From: Polytrichum commune
Lineage: Eukaryota > Streptophyta > Polytrichopsida > Polytrichales > Polytrichaceae
Direction: 5' to 3'
Assembly (NCBI GenBank): GCA_950295325.1
Contig: OX485805.1
Span: 45,842,758-45,906,757 of the forward strand
Length of the DNA: 64,000 nt
Made by a program: the position numbers and the translations under genes. The notes under the pieces are model-generated. The model saw only the letters and a program-made list of their open reading frames with translations. It was not told where the DNA came from and ran no database searches. Positions 20,616-62,929 of the stretch are shown in pieces (positions within the stretch are counted from its first letter, which is position 1; the number at the start of each line of letters is the position of its first letter).

Positions 20616-23600
20616 TCATAAACCCTGTTCTTGCATAGCACGAACACGAGTTGGCAATCCATAAAGACGAATAAAGCCTGCCGCATCCGCCTGGTTGTAA
20701 ATCCCACTCCCTTCCTCAAATGACGAGATGTCTTGCCTGTAAAGGCTGTTTGGACTCGTTCGGCTTGCTACATTCACGGAACCCTTGTAAAGCTTCAATG
20801 TAACTTCCCCTGTGGTTGTCTCCGTGATTTGCTCCATAAAACGGTCCATCGATTCACGAAGAGGGTCAAACCACCTTCCCGCGTATACGAGCTCCGCGTA
20901 TTTAAGCGCTAGCATGTCCTTCATTTGCATGCTCTCCCGGTCAAGGGTTAGGGCTTCAAGCTCCCGGCACGCCTGAGCTAAAATAGTTCCTCCAGGCGTT
21001 TCATAGACTCCCCTTGATTTCATGCCCACGAGACGATTCTCCACCATATCGATGCGGCCCACACCATGTCGGCCACCGACTTCATTTAATTCTTCTAAAA
21101 GAGTGGCAGGTGAAAGTGATTTGCCATTGTAACCAACCGGTAAGCCCTTTTCTATTTGAATTGTAACGTATCTGGCAGACAAGGGGCAGTCAACCAACAA
21201 ATCAGTTACTATGACTTCACTTGCACATCGAAAGACCTCAAAAGCACTATCACCAAGGGCCATGACCATGAATTTGTGAGGGCCCTTGAAACTCATCCAA
21301 AGGGCATAGCATAGAAAATTGAAAATGGATATTGTGTGGTCATAGGCTGTCAAATGTAGTGTAAAGACATATGCCACCAGTCAACTGAATGCTATTTCAT
21401 TACCATCCCATTCATGTGGACCCTTCTACACAATAAGTTATAGTGAATCAAGGGTTATATGATTCTGCAGTGTTGTGGTCTCCCCAGTTTTGTGTTACAC
21501 CCACCTCTTTGAGGTGGGCTTGACGCAAATTTTGGTAGACCATGAAATATCCATCACATCCCATGTAAGACATTCGTCCATTCACACTTCCTTGGTCCCT
21601 TAAGACCTCAAGCTCTAGTGTAAAGTGAAGTGGGACGGTCTCTATTTTCCACCAATGAGATTTTATATTTCAGTGATCACGGGCCTCAAGCATGGACTGA
21701 CCCTTAGATAGGTTACCAAGAGACCTTCAAATTAGCCCAACTGGTCAGTGACCCTCCTCATTTCAGGAAAAACAATGCAAAGACGGCAGCATTCAATCTC
21801 TAGTGTAGTAGGTTCCTAAAATTTTAAATTAAATCACATAAGGCACAATGTTACTTCAGTGGAAGATTTGATCACTTACTCAGGAGTGTCTGGGGCATCC
21901 TCAGGGTCGACAGTCATTACAAACATGTCCTTCTCTGGCTCATTTGCTGGATCTTCCAAAATATCACCCTGCAGCAAGCCATGGCATAAAATTAGTTCTC
22001 CATTTCACAAATTCCACATAGATATATTCAAATATTTCAACATGAAGCACATGAAGTATTAATCCAGATACTTACCCACAGCCTAAAAACTGATTCTTGG
22101 TGTATATAATAACCAGATTGCATAAACACACTTGAAAAAAGTGCAAACCCTTGGTGAGAAACCCAAATGTACACCTGCAACAAATTCCTAATTGATCAGA
22201 GGGACATGCAGTATGACAATTACCTCGTGACTAATATGCCATAAGTTACGATCGCGACTATAGATGGACTTCTTTGTAGCTGTGATTGGAATATTGTGCT
22301 TTCTAGCATATTCAATCGCATCCTCTCGTCCTTTAATGTCCCACTCCCGCCATGGAGCCACAACGGCCAACTTAGGGTCCAGTGCAAAAAATGTGAGCTC
22401 AAAGCGAACCTGTAATTTTAGACCACACCAGGAGTCAGATTACTTCTGAATTTAAGTGCAAAGGTGAGGAGGAGGAAGATGGATGCCACCAATTGCATAT
22501 ACTATATGTGCTTGTCAGTATCGTACATAATTAATTTTATCCATGAATGCTTCAATGACTAAGTGACACATGTCATGTTCTAATTGGTTCAAAGCAAAGG
22601 GTATTTGAAACTGTCCGTTACATATGGTAGATATATATTGAGGTGGTTAGGTACTGTAGAGGGTATTTCATATTCACTGGTGCCTGAATTAGTTTCCATA
22701 TGGGATTCAAGTGGGTCTCAACCAATATTAAGATGACACAAGGCAAGATTTGAGGGGGAACACCAATACTCTTCATCGGAATAGAGGGCCCTCTTTGGTA
22801 TTATGGCCTCGGAAATACGGGGATACCTACACTTAAGTGACAAAATTGGCAAGACAACAAGCTTTTTAAACAGGTAAATCACAATATTGGTTGTGCACGC
22901 TTTCTACAAAGTGAAGGCGAATGAGGTTGATAAGACACAACACCTGATCGTTACCCTTGCCAGTGCAACCGTGTGACACCGCATCTGCACCACATGCCTT
23001 TGCAACATCCACCATAGCCTGCTCGAGATCAAAATGAACAATTAAAAAATCACCAACTTCGCAAAAGATAAGTATTTCAATGACAAGAAAACTGAAGGAA
23101 TATTAAAGAGCAAGAAGAGACTTCCTCAATTTTTATGAACAAACGAAACTTTAGGTAGTTCTTTACCTTTGCGATGATTGGTCGAGCCATTGACGTGCCG
23201 AGCAGATATTTGCGCTCGTAAATGGCACCCGCTCTCAAGCAAGGATAAATGTAGTCCCTCACAAATTCCTCCCTAAGGTCAGCAATGAAGAGCTCGCTTG
23301 CACCACTTGCTTTTGCCTTCGCCTCCAACCCATCAGTTTCGCCAACACCCTGCACTTACCAGAGTAACCCTCCACATGAGTAAAACATGACCCCATGATT
23401 AATGGAGATTCGTTTTTTTGTCAGAAATCCATAATTTGGACACAAAGATTCCAAGCATAACTGCATGCATCTATGCTCTTTTGCTTCAGAATCAATGTGT
23501 TTTACAAAACAACGAGCTCTCGTGTGCAAAAAGGACATACTTGGCCAACATCAGCAGTGAAGCAGACAACCTCACAGCCATAATTTTCCCTGCAGCCCAA

Positions 23601-32010: not shown

Positions 32011-32521
32011 CACTTATGTTGACGAATCGTATCATATTGACAATTAACATATGCGACACTTTGAGACAACAAGGCATCTAGTTTAGGCCCTTTGCGAATA
32101 ATGTACATGACCCTAAAATGCCATGAACGGTGTAGTGGGAAAAAAATGTTGGATGAAATGACAATTTTTGGATGAAAATGTGACCATCTATTTGTCCCTT
32201 GAAGTGCATAGTGGATGCGTGATATAAGTTAAGCATGAGTAAATAAATTAGGTTAAGTCACACAATCTCTGTAGAGGGCTAGCTTTTGTAGCGTGCTAGT
32301 AGTAAGGCATTGTGGGATTCGATCCCTTGGATAATATTCTCGTCCTAAAAGGTCATTGACACAGTCACATGGCCATTTCCGAGTCAATCAACTTGTGGCC
32401 TTTGTGTATACAAACTCTATTTAATGGTTTGGGTGGAGTCCCACACGTGAGTCATTTTTGAGATTTGTCCTTTGGTTTTATGTTGGTTTAATAATTTTAC
32501 ACCTTGTAGTTTGGTGACAAA

Positions 32522-32830
32522 CATAAAGTAGAGAGAGAGAGAATTATTCTATTGGTAACATGTTGGGGACCCACTTTGATATGGTAAGGACGCTATATTC
32601 ATGTGGTTCATTTGGCATAAGGTTGTTGTAGTCAATTGATGGAGAGCCTGCATTGTGCCAACCTCGATTTCCAAGCATAAAGTAGAGAGAGAGAGAATTA
32701 TTCTATTGGTAACATGTTGGGGACCCACTCTGATATGGTAAGGACGCTATATTCATGTGGTTCATTTGGCATAAGGTTGTTGTAGTCAATTGATGGAGAG
32801 CCTGCATTGCGCCAACCTCGATTTCCAAGC
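32522..32830 (+). repeat. Two-copy tandem duplication, 154-bp unit
   Basis: The unit beginning CATAAAGTAGAGAGAGAGAG at 32522 is repeated head-to-tail at 32676, with only about two or three differences (for example TTGTGCC/TTGCGCC). The near-identity indicates a recent duplication. Confidence 0.9.
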
Positions 32831-34707
32831 ATTTTTTTTCTTCCCAAACACAAAAGAATCAATCAAAACCCAACTTTGGGATTGCGTTCAGGTGTGGGGA
32901 GCCTAGTGGTGGGCCACCTTCATCATGCATGAACTTTGTGGGGTTAGGACTAGCAATTACGAAAGCATCAGATGGAAATGAACACTCGTTGAAGAGAGGA
33001 TTCCTAAAATATCCATAAAAAATATTAAGATTTGGCACCTTCTACGTGGGATTACTCTGTGGACTATACGGGATTAAACACAACGACAAGGTGTCTAACC
33101 ACGAGCAATGATATGAGTCCAAGGTTTAATATCTAATTTGGGACAATCTCATTAATGTACGCCAAGGCAACTTGGGAGCAGGTGGTCAAGTTAGTTAAAA
33201 TTAGCATCTTCTTTGTCAAAGCTCTTCTTCAAGGTTTTGACCAAACATGGGCCACCAAAAATGTGCTTTTTACTTGGAACTGAAAACGATAACACACTTA
33301 AGTAGTTAGGCTTTTGAAAGTCACTTGGTGGCTTGGGAGTTGCCCATGGTTGGTGGTTCTTGGTGGGTTGTCTTTGGTGAGATTCAGGCTCTCATGTTAC
33401 TTTTTATATGGCGGTGTTTTGTGTTTGTATGTTGAGGTTTGGGGGTTTGTTACAATACACTTATGCTTCATCGAGGAAGCTATAGGAGGGGGCAAATCGA
33501 AAGGTTCGGTGTAATTTGGTTGGCAAATGGAATGACCGAGGATGACTTATGATTTTGGTTGTTTAAAAGGAGGGTTGCAATATTTATGGAATCATGGGGA
33601 ATGTGGAGCTTTGTTGATTAGTGTTTAGGTTTGTTGAGGACGAACAACTTAAAGTTTTTAATGGTTGCATGTCTCAACCAAAGGGCTTGACTTTGTCTTT
33701 CACACCTCGAGCATCTTTGAGAGCTTCCAAGTTTGCGTACAAATGTCTATTTAAGTGTGCAACATCGATCTAAGAGCTTTTTTTTATCAAATTTTCTACA
33801 CCTCAAGCATCATTTGGAGCTTTCAAGCTCATGTTTTGAGTGTCATGTGTGTGTGTGCATGTCTCAAACAACGAGCCAACCTTTGAGAATTAAGTGGTGA
33901 TGTTATTGCCCTCAATGCTTTTGTAAACTTGTTATAGGTTCAAATTATAGTAATAATGTGTATCTTAGTTATGTACACACACAATAAAGAACATAATGGC
34001 TTGGGGTTCATGGCATCTATGTAGACGTGATAATTGTGGATGAAGGGGTTGTAGCAAAAGCAAGCTCCCTACATGCTAAGGGCCAATTAATTCCAACTCA
34101 ATCCTACTAGACTGACTTGAGGTCCTTGATGCCATTCTCAAAGTCAAATAACCTAACCCCAAACATTATTTACTATAAAAACAATTTGTTATGTATTCAA
34201 TTGTCTTTTGAACGGGTTTATGTAGACATCACACATCGTTGGCGGAAACATAGCAGACATATCCCACCTTGGTACATAGTTAAAGGTTAAACACAACTTG
34301 ACAAAACTCATTGAAATCTAAAAGAGAGTTTGAGATTGAGACTGATGTTGAGAGATAGAACCAACCGTGAGTTGACGTGACTGAGAGACACTTCACCCTT
34401 GATCAAAGCCGCAAACATGCAATCAAAAAACATACTTGTCATTGATTCAACGAGACCATGTTTCAAGAATCCGTTATGAAGACTTCACATTCCTATATGA
34501 ATATCGAATGATTACTCCCACCATGTGAAAATTCAGACATATTATGAACATTGTGATCACGGAATTTGCCCATTCACAAATCTTGCGATCTCATATTTGC
34601 AACAAACGTGCTTCATGGGGACGAGAATTCAAGCCGAGTCACTTGAAGAATCTCACAAGAATTGTGTTTCTTTGACCATGACGAGCACGAGATCCAGGTG
34701 TGACTTA

Positions 34708-40509: not shown

Positions 40510-41210
40510 CGGGGACTATAATCGGGGAGAACCGGCAGTTAGTTACAGATGAACCGGTTGAGTTTGAAAAATAACCGGTTGAATCTCAAGACTGCAGGAA
40601 ATTACCCATCATTTTAGAGGAATTTATGGGATATACCAAATTTAGTAAAGGAAAACCGGAGGATGTCAACATGTAACCGGTTGGACTTGCAAACACTAGG
40701 ATCTCAACCGATTATGTCCGTCCAAAAATTTCCCTGATCACTGTCCGGGGAGGTTTTTGGGCATAAGATAACCAGTCAAGATCCTAGTGATGTTTCCAAG
40801 TCCAACGGTTACATGTTGTGGTCTCTTCGGTTTTCTTCATGAAAAGAGGTATATTCCATAGATTCCTCTAAAATGATGAGTGATTTTTCTAAGGTCTTGA
40901 ACTTCAACCGGTTATATCTCAAACTCAACTGATTCATATTGTGATTTCTTGGGGTTTCTTCATGAAAAGGAGGTATATTCTATAGATTCCTCTCAAATGA
41001 TGAGTGATTTTTCTAAAGTCTTGAACTTCAACCGGTCATTTCTCAAACTCAACCAATTCGTATTGTATTTTCTTGGGTTTTCTTTATTGATATGAGGTAT
41101 GTTCTATAGATTCCTCCAAAATGATGAGTAATTTCTCTAAAGTCTTGGACTTTGAGAGGTCGTTTCTCAAACTCAACCGGTTCATTTGTAACCGGTGGTC
41201 GGGTCTCCAT
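40510..41210. mobile_element. Foldback-like element with internally repeated arms
   Basis: Outer ends match inversely: AACCGGCAGTTAGTTACAGA at 40530 against ATTTGTAACCGGTGG at 41190. The centre lies near 40745, around GATCACTGTCCGG. The right arm holds three tandem units of about 128 bp (GAGGTATATTCYATAGATTC ... CTTGAACTTCAACCGG) at about 40847, 40971 and 41093. The left arm has one unit. Unequal internal repeat number in inverted arms is typical of foldback transposons. Confidence 0.65.
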
Positions 41211-48429: not shown

Positions 48430-50772
48430 ATGAATCAATGTGGTCCATTGTATTTGAAAATAAAAATGTAAGAATACTAGTGAGTCTCCAATTTTTGTGT
48501 GATTAAAAGTAGGTGCCATGTAAGTTCATGTTGCTACCCAACCTTGACAATGTTTTTCTTGTTTGAGATTCCAACAATCAAAATGTGAAGGTACAATAGT
48601 GGCAACATTCATAAATGTGCAAGAAATTTTCCAAGGATTGTTTTTGTCACCGGGCCCATCTTTTGCAACACTCCTATGTTGATGTAAGTTATTGATGGTT
48701 TGGCGGATCTCTAGGCAGCCATCGCCAGTTCTTGAGAACCAAATTTCTCGCATCTCAAATCACAAGCTACAGCCTGGTGTGCGTTGACTCCCACTTGTGA
48801 CAACAACATTATATTTTAATCACATTCCACCAAATATCACATATACTCCAATCCAATAAATACATAATATTACACCGTTATCAATGCAAGAAACCAAAAC
48901 TTCAAACCCCAAGACATAATTGTCCCCGCCTGGCTACAACAATGTGCATGCACTTGATTAGCTTGTCTTAGACCATATATTCTATGTGTAACTATGGTCC
49001 ACATCGACAACCAACCCCTTCTCATCCTAGCTACGTAGAACACCATACAATTTATTTGGAATTACCTATTGTGAAGATAGATTTTCCAACACTACCATTC
49101 AAGAGACACACAACAAATATAACCCACTAACACAAGTACTCCGACATGCAGGATGGAACATTAACCCTCTCACAACTATCACTGCCATAGTGAGGGGAGC
49201 CATACACAAACACTCGATATGCACATTGAAACACCCCAAGATACCACCGAATAAAGTTTTTGATTTTTTGATTTTATAAAATTTAAAGTCTTGAAACAAA
49301 TACACCAAATATCCATAATTTACTTCACAAACTCAACACTGAACAAATGGAGATTAGACATCAAACAAACTTCAATTGACCCACCATGAAAGAGACCCCC
49401 CCCCCCCCCTTGGTGCATATGTCACAAAAGGAGCCCACCCTCCAAACCCTTGAAGTTTGGTAAAACGTGATCAAGATAAGGAATAACATGCTCCCATTCA
49501 TGTCGGTGCAAGAAACACACCGATGTTTATTAGATATTATTTAATTGTTAATCATATTGAAATTGCACAACACCCACTAGTCTTAGTGCACCGGTTTTGT
49601 GCAAGTATCATTTTTTCCCCATATATACCAAAGGGTAAGGGTTTACAAAACAATCCGATTACAAGCATTTGGTTGAATCGATGAACATGGTTTTATGGAT
49701 GAAATTATTAACGAGAGAAGAATGGATGACCAATTGCATGAACAACGAGTCATCCATCAATTTGAGCCAGTTATAAGTCAAAATTGATCCGCCCATGGAC
49801 ATAGATGAAACATTGCAACGAGTTATGGTATTCCTTTTGCGCTTGGATGAGCGATCAATTATTTAAAAATTTAAGAGAAATTTGAAACAAGGCTAGCTGA
49901 CCATGGTAATAAAAACATTCATAAAACATCCAAGGGTATGTATAAGGTGATACTATGGAATTTTGCAATGCAATATGCAAACATTAAGTAGGCCAATACT
50001 TGTATTGAAGGATGTGATACCATCCAGGTTAGGTATTTACTTATATTTACTACATGTACCCCCTTTTTTCCTTGAGCATCTCAACATTCACATATTGTTG
50101 GAGAACCTTGATGAGCATATGTTTTTCTACCTTCATCCATGCTTATGTGAATACCATTTGTGTTTGATTCAAAATTTGCAAATGAGGGATGCACTTCCGA
50201 TAAAGCAGGCTCGGTTCGTGATTTATTTTAGACACCTAGAATTAAGGGTATAATGAATATAAAACATATATGTTACATGATTTTTAAAAGAACAAAAATT
50301 GAGTGGAGGCATAACATGACCTATATGCACAAGTAAATTGTCCACTATGTAGCACACTCTTAGCACATTACAATTATGGAAACAAGTGACTTGAGGCTCT
50401 GACTTGAGGCTCTAACGTAGGCTAGAGGTCCATGGATTGCACCAATTGTACACTATAGCGATCTATACATGAGACATTATATATAAATACAAAATGCCAT
50501 AAATTAATTAATTTGTAAGAAGCATTTCATCCCACACAAAAAGTTGAGGATGATCTAGATGGGTAACACAAATGAATGGCTATATATGTCAACCCCAACC
50601 CTTAAAAAACACATGGTCACAATATAATTCTATATACACAATTTATACAAACAGGTTCACCAAGTAAAGTAATGATATGTTTTGTATTTATGGGTTTGAA
50701 ACCAAGCTATAATTGGATACATTGTTGGAAAATTTCTAAGTCATCAGGTGTGATACACTACCTCCTAGCCAA
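48430..50772. other. Intergenic, no gene seen
   Basis: AT-rich with a C-run near 49398. An open frame at 49963-50253 has no recognisable domain. The left end of the Tc1-like element should lie in the last few hundred bases, but I could not place its terminal repeat. Confidence 0.4.
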
Positions 50773-50936
50773 TTGGCCCGACTTCCAACAAAATCTCAGA
50801 AAGATACCGTGATCAAATTGTCGCATGAGCCAAACATGTGTAGCGCATGTAAGGAAGGGCAAATTGAGAAACAAAGAGGAGGGTATCCGAAGCTTTTTAC
50901 AAATTCAGAGAAGACTCAGTGTGCTACTCTCGTTAT
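50773..50936 (+). pseudogene. Tc1-like transposase, N-terminal part (interrupted)
   Basis: The frame contains KDTVIKLSHEPNMCSACKE and QRGGYPKLFTNSEKTQCATL, resembling the paired helix-turn-helix DNA-binding region of Tc1/mariner transposases (compare GGRPKKLT...). It stops being transposase-like exactly at the target duplication 50927-50936. The remaining transposase resumes at 61065. The frame was therefore interrupted by the 10.1-kb insertion. Confidence 0.6.
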
Positions 50937-51120
50937 GGGAAAAACTATTTTGCGAGCGGTGAGCGGTAAGTTTTGTAGAATATTGAAATTTTGTGTGGTG
51001 AAACATGCCCTATGACCGCGGTGTAAAGCTAAATATTGAAATATTTATTGACAAAAATAACCTATAACCGTGGTTGAGGAACCTATAACCATGGTTGAGG
51101 AACCTATACTATATTTGCTT
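50937..51120. repeat. Left terminal inverted repeat and subterminal repeats
   Basis: After the terminal CTATTTTGCGAGCGGTGAGC there are three subterminal boxes: CCTATGACCGCGG (51010), CCTATAACCGTGG (51061) and CCTATAACCATGG (51082). The last two are in a 21-bp tandem repeat with GTTGAGGAA. Such boxes are plausible transposase-binding sites. Confidence 0.65.
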
Positions 51121-51140
51121 GCACATTCTCTTATAAGGTT

Positions 51141-51620
51141 TGTAGGTTGGGAATGGGTCTCGGATGGTTATAGGTTGTCATTTGAGGTGGACTAAGTCCC
51201 ACTTGGAGAAGGCCTGGGATCCGAGGCCTCGTGGCTGTGGTATCATTTCAGATTGGGTATAAGGTTTAATTTGTAGGTTGGGAATGGGTCTCGGATGGTT
51301 ACAACTTGTCATTTGAGGTGGACTAAGTCCCACTTGGAGAAGGCCTGGGATCCGAGGCCTCGTGGCTGCGGTATCATTTCAGATTGGGTATAAGGTTTGT
51401 AGGTTGGGAATGGGTCTCGGATGGTTACAGGTTGTTATTTGAGGTGGATGAAGTCCCACTGGGAGAAGGCCTCGGACCCGAGGCCTCATGGCTTGAGCCC
51501 CTACATTCTGATTGTGTTTAAAGGGTGTGGTTTCTGGGTGGGTCTCGTCATTTCAAGTGGATGGGCTACTTTGCAGGAGGCCTCGGATCCGAGGTTTGTT
51601 GGCCTTGGGGTTTGCTGTCT
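51141..51620 (+). repeat. Tandem repeat of about 130 bp
   Basis: Three close copies begin TGTAGGTTGGGAATGGGTCT at 51141, 51272 and 51399. A worn fourth follows from about 51530. The units share GAAGGCCTGGGATCCGAGGC. Confidence 0.85.
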
Positions 51621-52315
51621 GATTTGAGGTGAAGTTTATGGTTTCAGGTTGAATGTAGGCATGCCATGTTTGGGTTTCATGTTTAGCTACATTCAACCTG
51701 ACTCCATAAATTTGAAATCGAATCATTGGTTTCAATTTGGGTCTCGACATGCCCAATGGCTTAGATTTCATGTTCGGTCTCGGCATGGCCACTTTGGACA
51801 AGGCCTAGGGGTTTTATGTTTAGAATTTAGTGTCGTTGGTGTACACTTTAGTGAACTTGTAGACCATTGTGTAATATAGGTGTGCACCTCATATCATTGT
51901 TGAACATACTCATGCAGAGATATTAGTAAAGACACTTGAATGCCACGTTTCATGAGGTGACAGTAATGGTTTAGGGTCATTTATTCAAACCAGCATTCGC
52001 CTAAAATCGCAAGCAATCATTGAAAAAGTGTATGAAAACCATAATAGAAGAATAGTGGAAACCCTTAAAGAAACATGAGAATGGTATGAACTAATACGCC
52101 GATTATGGAAGTAAGTGATGAACAATAAAATTATTCGTTAACTCAAACGTTAACAAGAAACCAAGTGGTGTTCGAAAATATTTTAAACAATATCCCATAA
52201 ACTCCGAAAGTAATACACATACAATGAATTCCATGCGGAATGAGTGCATAAAATGAAAAACCAACGGAAGAAAAAACGGTATATTAGATAGTACACAGAC
52301 ATACACATGAAGCTA

Positions 52316-53771
52316 TTACATCAAATCCGAATCACTATGATCACCTGATGATGAAGACATTCTAGAATCACTAATATTTGAATCAGAGGAGGCATGACCA
52401 TTAGATTCTAAAGCTTCTATATCCAAAACTCTAAAACTCTTCCCGGACGATATTTAGATGTAAAAGTCTGATAAAAACCTCCAGCTAGTTGATTAGCAAT
52501 ATCATTTGCATATGTAAGAAGTTGCCAAGACTTTGGAGGGCTGGGATTGAATTTAGGGTCACAAAAAAAGGCCGGTGAATAGGATAGCTCAATTTATCGC
52601 ATCTGCAAATGCCAATGGTACCATGTTCATAACTCAACTTTAGAAGAAATGACAGCAAAAAACATAACACTAGTAAGAGAATTTTTATGGACCATACTCA
52701 CTTAGTAAAGCGAGATCTTTTCACAATCCTCTCAACGGGGATATCTTCACCCTCATGATCCTCTAAACTAGTGACACGGTCTTCAATAGTGACTGCAGAG
52801 GCTGCTCTAGAGATAAATCAATGGAGCAAGTAAGGCCTCAAAAATATCAACATCAGCCTCTAATGCCGCAATGTGACGGTGCACATTGCGGCATGCATGA
52901 ATGGAAGATCCTACAAATAAAGAAGTTGGAAAAACTTAGTGCAAAAACCACAATAAATTTTCAGAGCAAAAAAATATTAACCATTAACCAACTGAAATGG
53001 AAGATTACAAAGACATACCGGTCGATGCCGTGCAATCTAGAATAATATCCCATGGGGAGCTACATGCTTCAATTAGCATTTGCATTAGAAACACGGACTT
53101 TTCACGAGGCCCTCGCCATGGTGTGGATCCATTAGTTAGCTAGTCCTCACGAGAGACCAAGTTCTGGAGAATATCATCCCGTGCAACATCCACCCCATAA
53201 GGATCCAATTCACGGACATGGCGAAATGAAAACTTCGATGCAGGTGACCCCGGCACGCTCCTGACCGCCAATGAAATAACGAACCTCATGGTCTACAATG
53301 TACCCGACATAAAAATCAATATTACTTTACAAAGTAAACAACACAACTAACTTAAGGATGAAATTGAAACTGAATGCGGTGATGAGAAAGAAGGTTGAAG
53401 CTTTATCTTACAGTTGATGCTCGATTTATTGGGGATGTAAGATGAAGGCGGTTCATTTCCCACCACTCTTTCCGAATTGCAAAACCATACGATTTGCAAT
53501 ATCCAAGAATATTGGACTTCGTACTCATGCGAAAAGGGTGAAACACAATAATTGCCCCATCGTCGTGCAAATGTTCGTTGGCAAAGTCAATTAGTGGTTG
53601 TAACGACTCTTTCGATTCTTGATTCCAAGCGGGAATGGATGATGGTGGGTTTGATATGCCAGGAACAGGAAGACTTTCCGGTATATCTGCAAGAATCAAG
53701 TCCAAACAGGGATGGTCCTCCGGAGAACCCTTGTAGTGCCGGGTTTTGTCTTTTGAGTGATGCACAATCAA
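52316..53771 (-). pseudogene. Beta-class amino-methyltransferase-like (DNA N4/N6-methylase type) gene, decayed
   Basis: Minus-strand exons: 53771-53412, 53292-53019, 52910-52702 and 52602-52316, with consensus splice sites. The order is catalytic motif IV-like DLILADIP, then EHLHDDGAIIVFHPF, then PWRGPREKSVFLMQMLIEAC (motif X-like), then IILDCTASTGSSIHACRNVH (motif I) and RHIAALEADVDIFEALL. This IV-X-I order defines beta-class N4-cytosine/N6-adenine DNA methyltransferases. It ends in an acidic Ser/Asp tail. Damage: TAG after VSRED (about 53112), a frameshift after LLAPLI (about 52815) and others in the last exon. The usual DPPY/SPPY is DIPES, so activity is doubtful even if repaired. It lies in the left third of the 10.1-kb element. 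The start is uncertain because a stop precedes 53771. Confidence 0.7.
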
Positions 53772-54049
53772 AGGAGATTGTCACAATTTGTACATGACAA
53801 ATGACTTCAATAAAACTAGGTTAAGGGTGAATAGAACAAGCATTCAACTAGTTCCATTCAACGAGGAGTTTAAATCATTTTGAAGTTTACCTACCTCTAC
53901 AACAACCACAAGACATGAATCTCCCTAATGATGTGTGACTTCATAAAAAATTTGTAAGCAGTGACTGTCGGACAATAACAAATTTGAGGACCCTTATCAA
54001 CAGGATTAAAAGAATCCTCGCTTTATACATTGCCTAGTACTAGAAACAC

Positions 54050-57000
54050 ACTCAAATGAAAAAAAAAACCCCAACCCCACCCACTAATCTACCACTAGTT
54101 CCCCCTCAAAATCATACTTACAAAACATTCAACCCATATACATGAACATCCTCACCCCATCCCATATGGTCTCTCGGTACCGAGAAACCCTCAAATGAGA
54201 AAAAAAAAACCCCAACCCACCCACTAATGTACCACCAATTCCCCTTTAAAATGATACTTAGCAAAAATCAACTCATATACATGAGCATCCTCACCCCCTC
54301 TCCTATGGTGTCTCGGTATCGAGACACCCTCAAATGAGAAAAAAAAAACCCCAACCCACCCACTAATGCACCACCAATTCCTCTTCCAAATGAGACTTAG
54401 CAAAAATCAAGCCATTATACATGAGCATCCTCACCCCCTCTCCTATGGTGTCTCGGTACCGAGACACCCTCAAATGAGAAAAAAAAAACCCCAACCCACC
54501 CACTAATCTACCACCAATTCCCCCTCAAAATGAGACTTAGCAAAAATCAACCCATATACATGAGCATCCTCACCCCCTCTCAAATGGTGTCTCGGTACCG
54601 AGACACCCTCAAATGAGAAAAAAAAACCCCAACCCACCCACTAATGTACCATCAATTCCCCCTCAAAATGAGACTTAGCAAAAACCATCCCATATACATG
54701 AGCATCCTCACCCCCTCTCCTATGGTGTCTCGGTACCGAGACACCCTCAAATGAGAAAAAAAAAACCCCAACCCACCCACTAATGTACCATCAATTCCCC
54801 TTCAAAATGAGACTTAGCAAAAATCAACCCATCTACATGAGCATCCTCACCCCCTCTCCTATGGTGTCTCGGTACCGAGACACCCTCAAATGAGAAAAAA
54901 AAAAACCCCAACCCACCCACTAATGTACCATCAATTCCCTTTCAAAATGAGACTTAGCAAAAATCAACCCATCTACATGAGCATCCTCACCCCCTCTCCT
55001 ATGGTGTCTCGGTACTGAGACACCCTCAAATGAGAAAAAAAAAAACCCAAACCCACCCACTAATGTACCATCAATTCCCTTTCAAAATGAGACTTAGCAA
55101 AAATCAACCCATCTACATGAGCATCCTCACCCCCTCTCCTATGGTGTCTAGGTACCGAGACACCCTCAAATGAGGACAAAAAAAACCCAAACCCACCCAC
55201 TAATGTACCATCAAATCCCTTTCAAAATGAGACTTAGCAAAAATCAACCCATCTACATGAGCATCCTCACCCCCTCTCCTATGGTGTCTAGGTACCGAGA
55301 CACCCTCAAATGAGGACAAAAAAAACCCAAACCCACCCACTAATGTACCATCAAATCCCTTTCAAAATGAGACTTAGCAAAAATCAACCCATCTACATGA
55401 GCATCCTCACCCCTTCTCCTATGGTGTCTCGGTACCGAGACACCCTCAAATGAGAAAAAAAAAACCCCAACCCACCCACTAATGTACCATCAATTCCCCT
55501 TCAAAATGAGACTTAGCAAAAATCAACCCATCTACATGAGCATCCTCACCCCCTCTCCTATGGTGTCTCGGTACCGAGACACCCTCAAATGAGAAAAAAA
55601 AACCCCAACCCACCCACTAATGTACCATCAATTCCCCCTCAAAATGAGACTTAGCAAAAACCAACCCATATACATGAGCATCCTCACCCCCTCTCAAATG
55701 GTGTCTCGGTACCGAGACACCCTCAAATGAGAAAAAAAAAAAACCCTAATATCTTCAGACCTTCATAACTTCCACTTAAAATGTCCAAATCTAACAAAAT
55801 ACCACTCTATTGTTATGTAAATTCAACGTAGATGGCAATGCACACCTCACTTGCCCCATTCAAGCAAGTATTAAAAAAGTTATGCCCCTGCAAACCTTAG
55901 AAGTCTTGGGAGCCACTCCCGGGCCACTGCTAAGGTTTGAAGAGGCATAAGTTTCTGAGTTCTTGCTTGAATGTGACAATTATGGTGTGCATTGCCATCT
56001 CCGTTGAATTTAGATAACAATAGAGTGGTGTTTTGTTAGATTTGGACATTTTAAGTGGAAGTTATGAAGGTCTGAAGATATTAGGGGTTTTTTTTTTTCT
56101 CATTTGAGGGTGTCTCGGTACCGAGACACCATTTGAGAGGGGTTGAGGATGCTCATGTATATGGGTTGATTTTTGCTAAGTCTCATTTTGAGGGGGAATT
56201 GATGGTACATTAGTGGGTGGGTTGGGGGTTTTTTTTCCTCATTTGAGGGTGTCTCGGTACCGAGACACCATAGGAGAGGGGGTGAGGATGCTCATGTAGA
56301 TGGGTTGATTTTTGCTAAGTCTCATTTTGAAAGGGAATTGATGGTACATTAGTGGGTGGGTTGGGGTTTTTTTTTTCTCATTTGAGGGTGTCTCGGTACC
56401 GAGACACCATTTGAGAGGGGGTGAGGATGCTCATGTATATGGGTTGATTTTTGCTAAGTCTCATTTTGAGGGGGAATTGATGGTACATTAGTGGGTGGGT
56501 TTGGGTTTTTTTTTCTCATTTGAGGGTGTCTCGGTACCGAGACACCATAGGAGAAGGGGTGAGGATGCTCATGTAGATGGGTTGATTTTTGCTAAGTCTC
56601 ATTTTGAAAGGGATTTGATGGTACATTAGTGGGTGGGTTTGGGTTTTTTTTTTCCCTCATTTGAGGGTGTCTCGGTACCTAGACACCATAGGAGAGGGGG
56701 TGAGGATGCTCATGTAGATGGGTTGATTTTTGCTAAGTCTCATTTTGAAAGGGAATTGATGGTACATTAGTGGGTGGGTTGGGGTTTTTTTTTTTCTCAT
56801 TTGAGGGTGTCTCGGTACCTAGACACCATAGGAGAGGGGGTGAGGATGCTCATGTAGATGGGTTGATTTTTGCTAAGTCTCATTTTGAAAGGGAATTGAT
56901 GGTACATTAGTGGGTGGGTTTGGGTTTTTTTTTTTCTCATTTGAGGGTGTCTCGGTACCTAGACACCATAGGAGAGGGGGTGAGGATGCTCATGTAGATG

Positions 57001-57580
57001 GGTTGATTTTTGCTAAGTCTCATTTTGAAAGGGAATTGATGGTACATTAGTGGGTGGGTTTGGGTTTTTTTTTTCTCATTTGAGGGTGTCTCGGTAGCGA
57101 GACACCATAGGAGAGGGGGTGAGGATGCTCATGTATATGGGTTGATTTTTGCTAAGTCTCATTTTGAAAGGGAATTGATGGTACATTAGTGGGTGGGTTG
57201 GGGTTTTTTTTTTCTCATTTGAGGGTGTCTCGGTACCGAGACACCATAGGAGAAGGGGTGAGGATGCTCATGTAGATGGGTTGATTTTTGCTAAGTCTCA
57301 TTTTGAAAGGGATTTGATGGTACATTAGTGGGTGGGTTTGGGTTTTTTTTTTCTCATTTGAGGGGGTATCGGCACCGATACACCATTTGAGAGGGGGTGA
57401 GGATGCTCATGTATATGGGTTGATTTGTGCTAAGTATCATTTTGAAGGGGAATTGATGGTACATTAGTGGGTGGGTTTGGGTTTTTTTTTTTTTTTCATT
57501 TGAGGGGGTATCGGCACCGATACACCATTTGAGAGGGGGTGAGGATGCTCATGTATATGTGTTGATTTGCCAATACACCC
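54050..57580. repeat. Giant palindrome of about 140-bp tandem units, centre near 55915
   Basis: The left arm (54050-55740) has about 12 head-to-tail units of 138-141 bp. The right arm (56080-57580) has about 11 units in inverse orientation. Each unit holds an A-run, CCCCAACCCACCCACTAAT, TCAAAATGAGACTTAGCAAA, CATGAGCATCCTCACC and a 22-bp dyad with core TCTCGGTACCGAGA. The central 340 bp (55741-56080) is itself an inverted repeat around CACTCCCGGGCCACTGC. Long inverted arms built of tandem subrepeats are the structure of foldback transposons. Confidence 0.9.
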
Positions 57581-58310
57581 TCAAATCAGAAAAAAAAAAA
57601 ACCCCAACCCACCCACTAATCTACCACCAATTCCCCCTCAAAATGAGACTTAGCAAAAATCAACCCATATACACGAGCATCCTCACCCCCTGAAATGAAA
57701 AAAAACAAACCCCCTAATATCTTTGGACCTTCATAACTTCCACTTGCGTTGTCCAAATCTAACAAACAACCGCTCTATTGTTATTTACATTCAACGTAGA
57801 TGGCAATGCACACCTGAGTTGTTCCATTCAAGCAAGTACTCAGAAAGTTATGCCTCTTCAAACCTTAGCAGTGGCCGGGGAGTGGCTCCCAAGACTGCTA
57901 AGGTTTGAAGGGGCATAACTTTCTCAGTACTTGCTTGAATGGGGCAAGTGAGGTGTGCATTGACATCTAAGTCTCATTTTGAGGGGGGATTGGTGGTAGA
58001 TTAGTGGGTGGGTTGGGGGTTTTTTTTTCTCATTTGAGGGTGTATCGGCACCGATACATCATAGGAGAGGGGGTGAGGATGCTCATGTATATGGGTTGAT
58101 TTTTGCTAAGTCTCATTTTGAGGGGGAACAGGTGGTAGATTAGTGGGTGGGTTGGGTTTATTTTTTCTCATTTGAGGGTGTTTCGGCACCGAAACACTAT
58201 AGGAGAGGGGGTGAGGATGCTCATGTATATGGGTTGATTTTTGCTAAGTCTGATTTTGAGGGGGAATAGGTGGTAGATTAGTGGGTGGGTTGGGTTTTTT
58301 TGCAAGTGGA
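57580..58310. repeat. Second, smaller palindrome of the same family, centre near 57883
   Basis: One plus-oriented unit (57580-57710) is followed by a central inverted repeat (TATGCCTCTTCAAACCTTAG against CTAAGGTTTGAAGGGGCATA), then inverse units with dyads at about 58046 (TATCGGCACCGATA) and 58178 (TTTCGGCACCGAAA). It abuts the larger palindrome. Confidence 0.8.
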
Positions 58311-58439
58311 AGTTATGAAGGTCCGAAGATATTAGGGGCTAAGTTGTGTCATGTAATGACGCTCTCGGCCCCGAGAAGGGGTAGGGGGTTGGGTTCAATC
58401 TTTGTTTCGGGGACCCTCTCGGCTCCAAGAGGGTAAGGT

Positions 58440-59690
58440 ATGTGTTGAACGGGACCTGATTAGTATTGACGTCCTCCACCCTGTTGGTTCCAAGACCTCC
58501 CCCCACATTCCAAATTTCACACTCAATTTCAACCAAATATTTTCAGCCTCTAATCAAAATCACTAAATACCTTACCTTCTCTCAAGCACAACCTAAACAT
58601 CCTCCACTTGGAGCCATTCCCGGGTCAATGATGTCTAGGGCTTGGTCCTGCGCGAGCGCCCCACTGAAATTGGCATATCTCCTACCTCACACCTCCACTG
58701 TCGCGACCCTTGCTAGCTTTTCTTCACTTAGCTCAATCACTTTCCAACCCTAGCAAGTGTCCCGAGCGCTAACCTGCACATCCCACGCACATGCATGGTT
58801 AGCTTTCAAAACCGCGGACCTTCAATCTCATATTTGGTCACCAAACCCTCCTACACATGCATTCGGGACTCTTCCCCTTAGTAGGTAACCCATGGCTAAG
58901 GTGGACTTCCATCCATGGAAGTCCACTCCTTAGTTGGTCATAGTGTTGGTAGGACAACACTACAACCACCCGGAGCACATTGCCAAGTATGCTCCGGGGG
59001 GGTCGGTCGGCAAAGCCGCCTCACCCATATAAGCCTCTAGGACTTTTGGCGGGGCCCCTCCCCCACCGTCAACATCCCTTTTGTCTCTCTACCAAGAGTT
59101 GGGGCCAAGTAGACATTTTCCCTTAGCCGCTGGGTCTAGAAGCCTCCCTGCAGCTTCAGACCTTCATAACTTCCACGTGCAGTCTTTGAATCTAACAACC
59201 AACCACTCTATCGTCATCTACGTTTCACGTTGATGCCGATGGACACCTCACTTGCCCCATTCGGACAAGTACCAAGGAAGTTATGCCTGTTTAAACCTTT
59301 GCAGTCCCGGGAGCCACTCCCAGGCCACTGCTGTTCCAGGGCGCTGTCCCGGGACATCATCCCACTCAAAGTGCTATATCTCCTAGCTCACACCTCAGAT
59401 TGAGGTGTTCTTGAGCGTTCTAGAATTGGGACGCCATAAGCTACTCATAGCTTATGGCTTTACCCTCATGACTCCTAGTCTTCATGGGTGGGAGGTGTTC
59501 TAAACGCCCGGGGCCCTCACCCACATTAGGATCACTTGGTCCCTCTCACCAATGGCGTCACAAGTCCCGGGTGTCACTCCGGGGTCCCCTCTGTGCCCAT
59601 AGTGTTGCGGGCACTGCTTATGGAGAGGTGCGCGACATCCACCCCCTACCGCCTCTTGGAACCGAGAACCCCATAATGTGACATAACAAA
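58440..59690 (+). repeat. Dispersed 1.1-kb repeat, copy 1 (inside the element)
   Basis: It is directly repeated at 62930-63970. Shared landmarks: CTTGCTAGC, ACCGCGGACCTT/ACCGCGAACCTT, CACCCATATARGCCTCTA, TCTCTCTACCAAGAGTTGGG, GGAYCCCTCACYCACA-like, CACAAGTCCCGGGTGTCACT and GGAGAGGTGCGC. It includes the same CTTCATAACTTCCACKTG spacer sequence as the palindrome centres. Confidence 0.75.
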
Positions 59691-59859
59691 ACATTCATCA
59701 AAGCAACTCCCCCTAACCTGAAATCCTTTCAACCTACCATTCAATCTATAGTGTGACTTATTTTCATCCATATTCAAAGAACTCAATTTCACATGCCATT
59801 TTTGCAAAAATCTAAACGTGTATCTGCCCTTATTGCATATTATCTGTGACCCAAACAAA

Positions 59860-60604
59860 CTGTGCAAATTGAGTATTCTTTTGTCTCCTCGTCTGATCCG
59901 CTCTTATTGGGATTGTTGCGATGCTCACTCTCGGTCATTGATGGTTCGCGTGATCCTTTGTGCTCCTGTTCTTCCTCTATTGGTTGTAGTTCCATGTTCC
60001 TATCTGATGACCTGTGTCAACCTCTCCACACGCATTGGATGCAATCCTTGGAGAAACATACCAAAAACAGGAAACAAGAAACATGAAACTCGAGTTGGTA
60101 AGTCTATACGTGCCTCTATATTTCATGTATAGTTCATTTTTTATAGTTCAACTACATTGATTCCGCCATTATCCGGATGAGTTTCCCACCCGACATTCAA
60201 GGAAATTGATTAGGCGCAACAAGAAGGCCCCGTCAACAAAACACGCCAATAATTGTGCCTCAACCCTATCACTGAAAGCCAAAGTGCGCAAATTGTGCAT
60301 GCTTCCAGCCCCTGCCTTAGGATGCATCGTCTCATTGGATTCCGGCACGCCCCCAAAGGTTCAGCAATACTACTTGACGATTTCGTAGCTGCCAGCATGC
60401 ACTTGTCCTAACTTCAAGGAGATGGCGACTAAAGCAATTGGAAAACGGGGTCAATGGGCCAACTGTAAGCATTTGTATTATTTGTTTACTATAGTGTGTG
60501 ATTTGGACTCGGATTCAGACACGTTCATTCATGCAGCTAGATTTAGCTTCAACGAAGTGAAGCGAGTTTTGGAGGGTGGTTTGTTGAAGTACCTTGATTC
60601 TTAG
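59860..60604 (+). pseudogene. SWIM zinc-finger protein gene with in-frame stop
   Basis: The last exon (to TAG at 60602) encodes PACTCPNFKEMATKAIGKRG and QWANCKHLYYLF, a CxC...CxH SWIM zinc finger, followed by FIHAARFSFNEVKRVLEGGL. SWIM fingers bind nucleic acid or protein and are frequent in transposases and chromatin proteins. Upstream in the same frame the sequence KVQQYYLTIS meets a TAG at 60386-60388, just before the finger. An upstream exon-like frame ends at a good donor (TTG|GTAAGTC, 60097). It is either a pseudogene or one point mutation from intact. It lies about 450 bp inside the right end of the 10.1-kb element, the same position as the phosphatase-like cargo in the element at 1-2645. 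Confidence 0.6.
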
Positions 60605-60900
60605 AGTTTTCTGTTTCTTTAAAGAAACATATGTATGCAAGATATGTTATAATGATGATGTAGTGAGACTAAAAGGGCCACTACAAGACATTTGACGCAC
60701 CACATGTATTTCTCTTTCCCAAAGTTGCGTGACCCTTTTAGAGTACCACTAATTCTCATTATACTAAAACAATATGTGTTTGACTTGAGACAAACCCATA
60801 TTTATTACTGATATTACTTCCAAATGTTCAATTAAACACCCTAAACCATATTTTTCACTGATACAATAACATTTTTTCCTGTATCAAAGCCCTTAATTGT

Positions 60901-61054
60901 CCACGGTCATAGGTCCCACTGTTCACTAAGTTTAGAAAAAAAAATCCTAAAAATAATTTTAGTCCAAAAATACCATAAACTTACTGCTTAAAATAACATT
61001 TTAATCAAAATATCTCGGAAGTTACCGCTCACCGCTCACAAAATAGCTTCGTCC
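60901..61054. repeat. Right terminal inverted repeat of the 10.1-kb element
   Basis: Contains CCACGGTCATAGG (60901-60913) and ends TTACCGCTCACCGCTCACAA AATAGCTTCGTCC at 61054. It is the inverse of the left end for the outer 33 bp, with few differences. The inner part is diverged. Confidence 0.7.
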
Positions 61055-61064
61055 CTCTCGTTAT

Positions 61065-61813
61065 TGAGGGTCAACTTGGAAAGTGCATCTGCGACATCAA
61101 AGAAGTTCAATCTGATATATGTAAATTGTTATCTAACCGCTTTGAGAGATGTTGGAATGGGTGCACACGTGCAACAAAAGAAACCATTTTTTAATTGTAA
61201 ACATGTTCTCGCATGCCTAAGGTTTGCTCAAAGGTACGATAATTGCATTATTGACAATTGAAATCGCGTGATTTTTAGTGACGAGACAAAGATAAATAAG
61301 TTTGACTTGGATGGTAGGTCATGGTGTTGGATTGGAGATGGTGAACGCATTGGACCTCGACATGTCCATTAGAACGTGAAACATCATGGTGAGTCAATGA
61401 TGATTTGGGGATGCATAATAATTTATCTATACAAATTTATTTTAGAAAAAATCTTGTCGTCTACTACACATAATTATAATCTAGATCCAAGTAGGTTGGT
61501 CTTTCAATAGGATAATGATCCCAAACACACGAGCAAGATTATGCAAGAATACTTAGCATCACAAACATTTCAACTCCTTCAATGGCCTGCACAAAATCTC
61601 TGGATTTGAATCCCATTGAATACTTCTGAGCACTTTTCAAATGGCGCTAGAACAAATTTACGACGCCTCCAAGAGGTCTCCAAGAATTTTAGAAGCTTAT
61701 GTGCTAAATGCATCCCAATTTCAATGAACAAGATTACATGGCGCTTTATGAGAGCATGTCACAAAGAATTGACGTTATGTTTAAGAGTAGGGGTTACTAG
61801 ACCAATTACTTAA
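61065..61813 (+). pseudogene. Tc1-like transposase, catalytic part
   Basis: Broken frames give, in order, SASATSKKFN, LTALRDVGMGA, KKPFFNCKHVLACLRFAQRY, VIFSDETKINKFDLDGRSW (first catalytic Asp), GESMMIWGCI, VFQQDNDPKHTSKIM (second Asp), LLQWPAQ and, after a 1-nt deletion, LDLNPIEYF (Glu), then a terminal GVTR. Spacing between the second Asp and the Glu is about 34-35 residues, as in the Tc1 DD34E group. In-frame stops (61259, 61371, 61627) and shifts make it inactive. It continues from 50773-50936 across the 10.1-kb insertion. Confidence 0.85.
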
Positions 61814-62929
61814 GATTTTATAGGCAACTTGAATAAATCAAAGTATTTATCTATAGTTTCTCATTTGTCTTTGCAACATACTTTCAATCTATTGATCTAA
61901 TGTAAATTTTTGCGTACATGTGCACAAGTTTGTGCAATATCGTATTCAATTTAAAAATTTAAAAATAACCTATGAATTGTTCAAGATTGTCTATTGAAGA
62001 TGAGTCTAATCAAAGTGTATTCAATTTTGTTCATGACGATAGGTCCCTCTAATTATGTTGACTGTTGGGCTTATGGCCCCTCTTCACCTAACCTTAGTAA
62101 ACACTGGGTCTTAAAATAAAATCCACCGTTATATATGATAGTAGGGTATCATGGTCCACCATCAGGTTTGGCAAGGTTGGTAACCTGGGGCCTAATATCT
62201 TGGGCCGTTTTAACAACTTTTGTTAACAACTTTCTTCACTATGTTTGTAAATCTGAAGGCGGGGTTTCGGTTTTTAAGCTTGTCGAAGCAACTTTCTTAA
62301 ATGTGCCTACAAGACTCAGGGGAGAGACATGCGTCTCACGTTTGTCGAAGGCTCGTAATGGTATGCTTAATTGAAGTGGGCATTTATTGTAATGAACTTC
62401 CTCAATCAGGTAATTTCAAAACGCATGATTACTATACGAAGTAAATTCTACTGCTCCAACTAAAATATATTTTGAGAGCAATCCTTATTTTATACTGTGT
62501 TTGGGTTTAGCTTACCTGGACTCCAAAATGCGCATCTCAATATCAATTAGAGCAACCACTTGTTCTAGATTATGTATGCCGAAATTCGCAATAATCTAGA
62601 CTCTAAAACATAGCTCCTTTCCAACGAAACCTTAAACTTGACTAATCACATGTATGCACTAAACCCTTGATTCAAATTATGTTGATTTGCAACCCGTAGA
62701 GGCTGTGCATATGACATTGGAACCTTTACCTCTTCCAAAATGTAGAACTTGCTCTCTTAAGAGCAACAACCTCATTAGGATGTACATATCGAAATAAATT
62801 TGTAGAAATGCGTAACAAGGTTTGCGCTAAACCAACCACTACACTAGAAGAAGTGAATATTGAAATGAACACCTCACAAAACCCAAAACTCACGTAGGAT
62901 GAAAAATCCGTAAATTGTGTTCCTCAAAT
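61814..62929. other. Intergenic, no gene seen
   Basis: The right end of the Tc1-like element should be here but its terminal repeat was not found. An open frame at 62135-62374 has no recognisable domain. Confidence 0.4.

Follow-up and report, generated by a model that had tools for sequence, protein, structure and literature searches.

Mutator-like elements (MULEs) are described with target duplications of 8 to 10 bp in a report on the transposase of Muta1 (PMC5225508), which names the residues D214, D283, H307, W401, and E419, from which a spacing of 69-24-94-18 follows, and mentions two MULE families with inverted repeats shorter than 60 bp. For the VANDAL elements, which are MULEs of Arabidopsis, the second protein VANC is reported to have its targets in tandem repeats that vary and lie upstream of the transposase gene as well as within introns, and the transposase is given as more conserved than VANC (PMC5735166). 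Transposons carrying TET/JBP enzymes in fungi or SET enzymes (HarbingerS, MuDR) were also reported (PMC12730594), and Tc1-like elements are known from moss and other plants (PMC4054914). These systems are compared here to a stretch of 64,000 bp from the moss Polytrichum commune (C3:45842758-45906757, “the window”), in which positions 50937 to 61054 are one transposon of 10,118 bp, inserted as a unit into a Tc1-like pseudogene. It is a non-autonomous internal-deletion derivative. Together with its relatives in the 408-Mb assembly (64 contigs), it probably belongs to large cut-and-paste transposons that encode a MULE-like DDE transposase and a methyltransferase-domain protein, with palindromes as the likely sites of the latter.

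The insertion is flanked by a perfect 10-bp direct repeat, CTCTCGTTAT, each copy of which abuts one of the inverted ends (Table 1). An earlier sequence-only reading had claimed this duplication beside matching termini, and both copies were found at the positions it gave. The left end (“A-end”) starts with GGGAAAAACTATTTTGCGAGCGGTGAGCGGTAA and the right end (“B-end”), read as the reverse complement, with GGACGAAGCTATTTTGTGAGCGGTGAGCGGTAA. Clear similarity between them ends after about 33 bp, so that the predicted inverted match is present but the inverted repeats are short and not long. The interrupted gene is Tc1-like, with a weak match to PF01498 (E = 0.0056, under its cut-off), and the right flank had 42 matches in the genome, the window included (40 scored candidates), indicating several dozen Tc1-like relatives in the host. 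The Tc1-like plant elements PpTc1 and PpTc2 resemble this sequence in the kind of sequence hit, but here it is the target and not the element. An uninterrupted paralog, for which the earlier reading had advised to look, is located in inverted orientation at C3:45804588-45805799, at a distance of about 88 kb. It contains the target once, with one base different, and 1,106 of 1,224 columns are identical in an alignment with the joined flanks of the window; therefore, the 10,118 bp were inserted as a unit. The Tc1-like halves are contiguous in this paralog, as had been expected, and the frame crosses the joint as RRLSVLLSLLRVNLESASATSKKFN in a pseudogene with stops, without need for the 1-nt shift proposed before.

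Similar ends were found throughout the genome. A 25-bp end motif, CTATTTTGYGAGCGGTGAGCGGTAA, gave 249 matches with up to two mismatches in 408 Mb (126 forward, 123 reverse), and the reversed control gave none on either strand. From these matches, 119 listed end sites were examined (100 from the mismatch pattern and 69 from a second, exact pattern), yielding 27 neighboring facing end pairs within 60 kb, the window included. The first 19 pairs were picked by eye (eight cut whole, ten read at the ends, and the window), with a duplication in 17 of these 19, and the other eight pairs were added later. In total, 22 of the 27 pairs possess a perfect 10-bp duplication, one pair agrees at 9 of 10 positions, and four have none. 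The best agreement among 702 mispaired end controls was 7 of 10, so that the duplication in the window is not a chance event. The two ends of the elements are not alike: A-ends read GGGAAAA[AGT] and B-ends mostly GGAC[GA]AAG, followed in both cases by CTATTTTG or a near-identical sequence and by two to five GAGCGGT heptads (19 pairs first tested), which are probably the sites of the transposase. Pairs of 57, 52, 44, and 36 kb with perfect 10-bp duplications were also present (C5:27925937-27982859, C2:23736408-23788767, C1:27945264-27989114, and C5:32595399-32631407); they may contain nested insertions or long arrays. In the region C4:31563557-31635780, pairs 10 and 11 have the same A-end and flank, pointing to a local duplication.

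Eight copies were cut whole, five of them full-size with 16.1 to 17.7 kb (p3, p5, p17, p18, and p13) and three shorter (p7, 11.7 kb; p11, 6.7 kb; p6, 8.6 kb). The five full-size copies contain two divergent genes, one for the transposase and a second one for the methyltransferase-domain protein. The transposase gene is the right one, on the plus strand when the A-end is at the left. In p17, its two large exons of 697 and 488 amino acids (aa) are free of stops, adding up to 1,185 aa with an assumed start, and are separated by an intron GTAAG...TTGCAG; transposase matches in many other copies carry stops. The transposase exon had 59 scored matches with 75 to 100% identity (of 2,455 first-look candidates), and exon 2 is 88 to 95% alike across all copies measured. 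Substitutions are concentrated at third positions in both exons, and the ratio of nonsynonymous to synonymous divergence (dN/dS) was 0.19 for exon 2 (p3 versus p17, 697 codons) and 0.20 for exon 3 (p5 versus p17, 480 codons). The motifs form a D-D-CxxH-W-E layout with a putative SWIM-type tail. The distances D-66-D-32-H-76-W-23-E, with residues picked by eye, are identical in p17 and in a related “cousin” family; the copies L038 and L040 match them for the motifs that were found; the search pattern missed E in L038 and W in L040. A CxC...CxH motif of the SWIM type was seen, with a weak match to the Pfam SWIM model in the cousin (E = 0.076, under the cut-off), and a Cys/His-rich stretch, a candidate for the N-terminal zinc finger of the WRKY-GCM1 type in MULEs, is visible by eye in the alignment. 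A pattern search of viral contigs gave 55 matches, none of them a relative, and the Pfam KDZ model gave no match, as did its controls. Judged from these sequence features, the element is probably a MULE: it shares with this superfamily the duplication length (10 bp in 23 of 27 pairs, with 8 to 11 bp expected), short tandem repeats at the ends, the order and spacing of the catalytic residues (66-32-76-23 compared to 69-24-94-18 in Muta1), the putative SWIM-type C terminus, and the existence of non-autonomous derivatives.

The second gene is on the minus strand from the middle of the element toward the A-end and comprises at least nine exons (a to i), as judged from peptides conserved between copies. 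The p3 copy has a stop in exon a, and its exon f is spread over two frames; continuous splicing was traced through exon d in p3 and exon a in p5. Profile searches with the joined exons g-h-i of p3 (277 aa) yielded the Pfam model N6_N4_Mtase (PF01555; E = 5.3e-6, 27.0 bits with a cut-off of 26.7), matched in the last quarter of the profile only, and the structure of the adenine methyltransferase DpnA (E = 3e-6). Both matches fall into the S-adenosylmethionine-binding part, and motif IV is positioned ahead of motif I (by eye). The protein thus has a profile match to the N4/N6 (beta-class) DNA methyltransferases. The N-terminal part had no family match in Pfam, NCBIfam, or the PDB. A ParB-like N terminus, suggested by a DGNHR motif, was dismissed because these databases gave no ParB match and weak unrelated ones only; sub-threshold matches of single exons in Pfam and NCBIfam (Dynamin_N, NTR2, MRC1, Drt3a, and others, E of 0.005 or worse) were assigned to chance or composition.

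Between p3 and p17, the dN/dS of the second gene was 0.11 for exon f, 0.16 for exon h, and 0.40 for exon i, so that the gene is under purifying selection in these exons; synonymous sites were saturated in the four comparisons that involved p13 or p18. Synonymous divergence between p3 (L001 and L002) and p17 (L003 and L004) was 0.75 to 1.08 in the second gene but 0.23 in transposase exon 2. This several-fold difference between the left and the right gene suggests that the halves of the element differ in history, and they may recombine. Exons a to f are 98% identical between p3 and p5, 84% between p3 and p17, and 86% between p18 and p13, with 61 to 64% between these groups; they were not found in p7 or the window copy. 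Exons g to i form the three groups p3/p5/p7/window, p17, and p18/p13, with 66 to 70% identity between groups.

The copies contain satellite arrays of tandem units, the length of which differs between copies (295 bp in p3 and p7, 223 to 225 bp in p17, 203 bp in p18, 164 to 169 bp in p13, and 139 bp in the window copy and p6). These otherwise different units have the palindrome TCGGNNCCGA in common, with the long form GTCTCGGNNCCGAGAC. The best match between the units of p3, p17, and the window is the 20- to 21-bp palindrome GTGTCTCGGNNCCGAGACAC, and the units of p13 and p18 share a different stretch of 19 to 20 bp around the 10-bp core. The number of TCGGNNCCGA palindromes was 11 in p3, 10 in p5, 16 in p17, 9 in p18, 15 in p13, 4 in p7, 15 in p6, and 20 in the window copy, compared to Markov means of not more than 0.17. 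No site was present in the remaining 53.9 kb of the window, the cousin, or 14 MULE loci with 28 kb in total, and the exception among the copies cut whole was p11, which has no duplication, with a count of 0. Many arrays contained no palindrome above shuffles, among them small ones and the large arrays of p18 and p13, which hold the core only. The central two bases are mostly uniform per type of copy, with GA in p3, p5, and p7, TG in p17, AC in p18, CC in p13, and TA or CA in the window copy and p6. The long form has 1,383 exact sites in the genome, with none for the reversed control; the 50 of these that were listed, all on C1, form six clusters, none of them farther than 22.4 kb from a listed end motif, and 1.9% of random positions in that stretch of C1 are as close to one. 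Long palindromes are present in p3, p5, p7, p6, the window copy, and p17 and short ones in p18 and p13. Since exons a to f split in the same way and the transposases are alike in all copies measured, the type of palindrome appears to follow second-gene exons a to f and not the transposase, in a comparison of five copies in two groups only.

The window copy has lost the catalytic transposase exon, in agreement with the claim that it is non-autonomous; the statement that it lacks any recognizable transposase has to be amended, since a remnant of the last exon is preserved (Table 1). The copy L012 (C1, 8.6 kb) is the same derivative, with 98 to 99% identity over the aligned unique parts and its own perfect duplication, CTCTCAAATG. 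Another perfect duplication, CGGTTGTGCC, was found at C7:16977359-16991628, of which only the ends were read, around a 99% match of window positions 58350 to 60080. This segment had nine other near-full matches of 99 to 100%, L012 included, and five partial ones of 99 to 100% (40 scored of 3,630 candidates). Near-identical copies without the catalytic exon but with duplications of their own imply that copies of the window type were probably mobilized in trans, and recently. Such copies, together with the empty-site paralog, also agree with the earlier claim that one element delivered the whole interval. For the 139-bp satellite, 15 of 17 candidate regions were scored and 216 matches obtained, and every listed locus also carries the sequence of positions 58350 to 60080, so that within this search the satellite is private to the window-type derivative. 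At C7:7567976-7586269, satellite matches, listed with a gap, extend across about 18 kb, which suggests strong expansion of the array in one copy. The solo-LTR-like (long terminal repeat) insertion in the window copy, with TG...CA ends, is flanked by TCCAC at 58694 to 58698 and 59638 to 59642 (by eye) and has at least 25 other genomic matches at 95 to 96%.

Table 1. Positions of the transposon features and flanking sequences in the window
Feature	Position	Strand	Basis or remark
Left flank, continuous with Tc1-like pseudogene in the paralog	50500-50936	+	Paralog alignment
Left 10-bp target duplication CTCTCGTTAT	50927-50936		Sequence read at both ends
A-end terminal inverted repeat, two GAGCGGT heptads	50937-50969	+	Clear similarity of the ends over about 33 bp
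Tandem repeats of about 131 bp near A-end	51132-51493	+	TCGGNNCCGA inside at 51472, another past the array at 51583
Span of 20 palindromes TCGGNNCCGA	51472-58374		None elsewhere in the window; shuffle mean 0.17
3' remnant of second gene (methyltransferase exons)	51829-53775	-	90% identity to full-size p3
Satellite array, 140-bp unit, 12.2 copies	54046-55741	+	Consensus includes GGTGTCTCGGTACCGAGACACC
Same satellite inverted, 139-bp unit, 10.6 copies	56085-57568	-	Tandem-repeat comparison
Third, small array of that satellite, 2.4 copies	57967-58301	-	Tandem-repeat comparison
Nested solo-LTR-like insertion (TGTCGCG...CGCGACA)	58699-59637		Ends and 5-bp repeat read by eye
Remnant of intron between the two large transposase exons	60092-60172	+	Match to full-size copies
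Remnant of last transposase exon, SWIM-type motif CTCPNFKEMATKAIGKRGQWANCKH	60170-60604	+	Two open pieces parted by a stop
B-end terminal inverted repeat, two GAGCGGT heptads	61022-61054	-	Clear similarity of the ends over about 33 bp
Right 10-bp target duplication CTCTCGTTAT	61055-61064		Sequence read at both ends
Right flank, interrupted Tc1-like transposase pseudogene	61065-61850	+	PF01498, genome matches, and paralog alignment

The cousin family (L055 to L057, C3:1685400-1705000) is abundant, and its SWIM exon had 150 scored matches of 2,035 candidates. The one cousin copy that was read contains the same two divergent genes, with 47% identity in the large transposase exon and the intron at the same place. 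Its inverted ends of 62 bp (88.7% identity) carry GAGCGGT-like heptads, and a duplication of 10 to 11 bp surrounds 11.6 kb. The cousin arrays carry other palindromes; one of these, GTTTGGGTCGNNCGACCCAAAC, has 9,231 exact sites in the genome as a whole, and the reversed control had none.

The following sequence of events would explain these data. A MULE-like transposase may bind to the heptads and make a staggered cut, which would result in the 10-bp duplication. Having retained both heptad-bearing ends but not the catalytic part of its transposase, the window derivative would have moved in trans, carrying a satellite whose unit includes the family palindrome. The second protein would most likely bind to the palindromes or modify DNA there; it could mark the DNA of the element itself or relieve silencing, as VANC does for VANDAL MULEs. 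A role of the second gene in self-recognition is, by this analogy, put forward tentatively. As in VANDAL elements, the second gene evolves faster than the transposase gene, and motifs that vary between copies are located in tandem repeats, both within introns and ahead of the transposase gene; their role as targets would be the same by analogy. In contrast to VANC, the second protein has an N4/N6 methyltransferase domain, and the motif is a palindrome of 10 to 20 bp. The TET/JBP and SET transposons likewise combine a transposon with a gene for a DNA- or chromatin-modifying enzyme but differ in enzyme fold and host. In a literature search with most subscription journals and Repbase outside of it, no listed title or start of an abstract described a MULE-like element of plants that carries a gene for an N4/N6 methyltransferase, which speaks only weakly for novelty. 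A more far-reaching version remains doubtful: in both families, the methyltransferase-fold protein would recognize its own palindrome as a self tag for modifying the element or lifting its silencing, the protein would diverge jointly with the palindrome while the transposase stays constant, the system would be independent of VANC, and non-autonomous copies would exploit enlarged tag arrays.

Several results weigh against parts of this explanation. Concerning the transposase, no match of note was obtained in Pfam, NCBIfam, or the PDB. The MULE model PF10551 found 142 places in the genome, all of them more than 3 kb away from any of the 59 transposase matches, and when the transposase core was compared by hhalign to MULE frames from this genome, with shallow alignments, the result was not significant. 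Inverted repeats longer than 100 bp, which are typical but not strictly required, are replaced by those of about 33 bp in the window, and with 16 to 18 kb, a methyltransferase-fold gene, and palindromic arrays, the five full-size copies differ further from MULEs. Since the test of the MULE sequence model gave no match, the element is filed as MULE-like and not as a proven MULE; the Mutator-like assignment of the sequence-only reading is favored by the duplication length and by the transposase layout of the relatives but not shown by the sequence models tested. The family could instead form a separate DDE superfamily, but the uniform 10-bp duplication in every duplicated pair, the spacing of CxxH, W, and E, and the putative SWIM-type tail fit MULEs and make this rather improbable. 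A Pack-MULE with captured host genes would agree with an interior that varies between conserved ends; much of this interior, however, consists of remnants of the element's own genes, its own satellite, and the solo-LTR-like insertion, and no host gene was recognized in the frames scanned, leaving very little room for such an origin. The four of the 27 pairs without a duplication could even point to a coincidental 10-bp repeat at a rearrangement, with Tc1-like halves that were never contiguous. Two of these pairs, pair 15 and C6:35287206-35316619, each join two B-ends and are consequently not two ends of one element, pair 11 has the A-end flank of pair 10, and C6:18007692-18014058 holds a partial window-type copy. 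As the contiguous paralog with a single target refutes a rearrangement, the probability of this case is practically nil.

Other objections concern the second protein. The matches of its methyltransferase domain to the NCBIfam models PRK13699 (0.0015) and CcrM (0.0024) were far under the cut-offs, and DUF1985 and DUF287, the VANC domains, had no Pfam match in the second-gene exons scanned, which were a subset of all exons. In motif IV, DPPY is replaced by D[ILQ]PE in all eight copies that keep the exon (nine examined) and by QFPDG in the cousin, so that catalysis is doubtful and the protein may not methylate. Near-perfect palindromes could bind any dimer, and the transposase gene is conserved more strongly than the second gene; the arrays might then serve the transposase, replication, or hairpin formation, with the second gene as an unrelated passenger. 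This appears less likely than not, because heptads and not palindromes are located at the ends of the element, and all 11 palindromes of p3 fall into the intergenic region or two second-gene introns, with none in the transposase gene region. Moreover, the palindrome type tracks exons a to f in the five copies compared, despite similar transposases. Selection on the second gene is purifying in those exons that were measured, and the cousin copy that was read contains this gene as well. A MULE-like family with a methyltransferase-domain protein and the palindromes as its probable sites is the explanation that is followed here.

Outside of the transposon, the window contains the frames 8367 to 9491 and 20616 to 21380, which we take to resemble plant genes, and two tandem repeats at 32518 to 32832 (154-bp unit, 2 copies, 98%) and 40812 to 41189 (124-bp unit, 3.1 copies).

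If the second protein acts on the palindromes, these transposons would be a second, differently built candidate for a transposon-encoded, sequence-specific escape from silencing in plants. The two palindromes, with 1,383 and 9,231 exact sites in one genome, would provide a readable candidate target code, and the tag-rich non-autonomous copies may serve as natural test material. The window copy and its relatives also suggest how a transposon may make and spread its own satellite.

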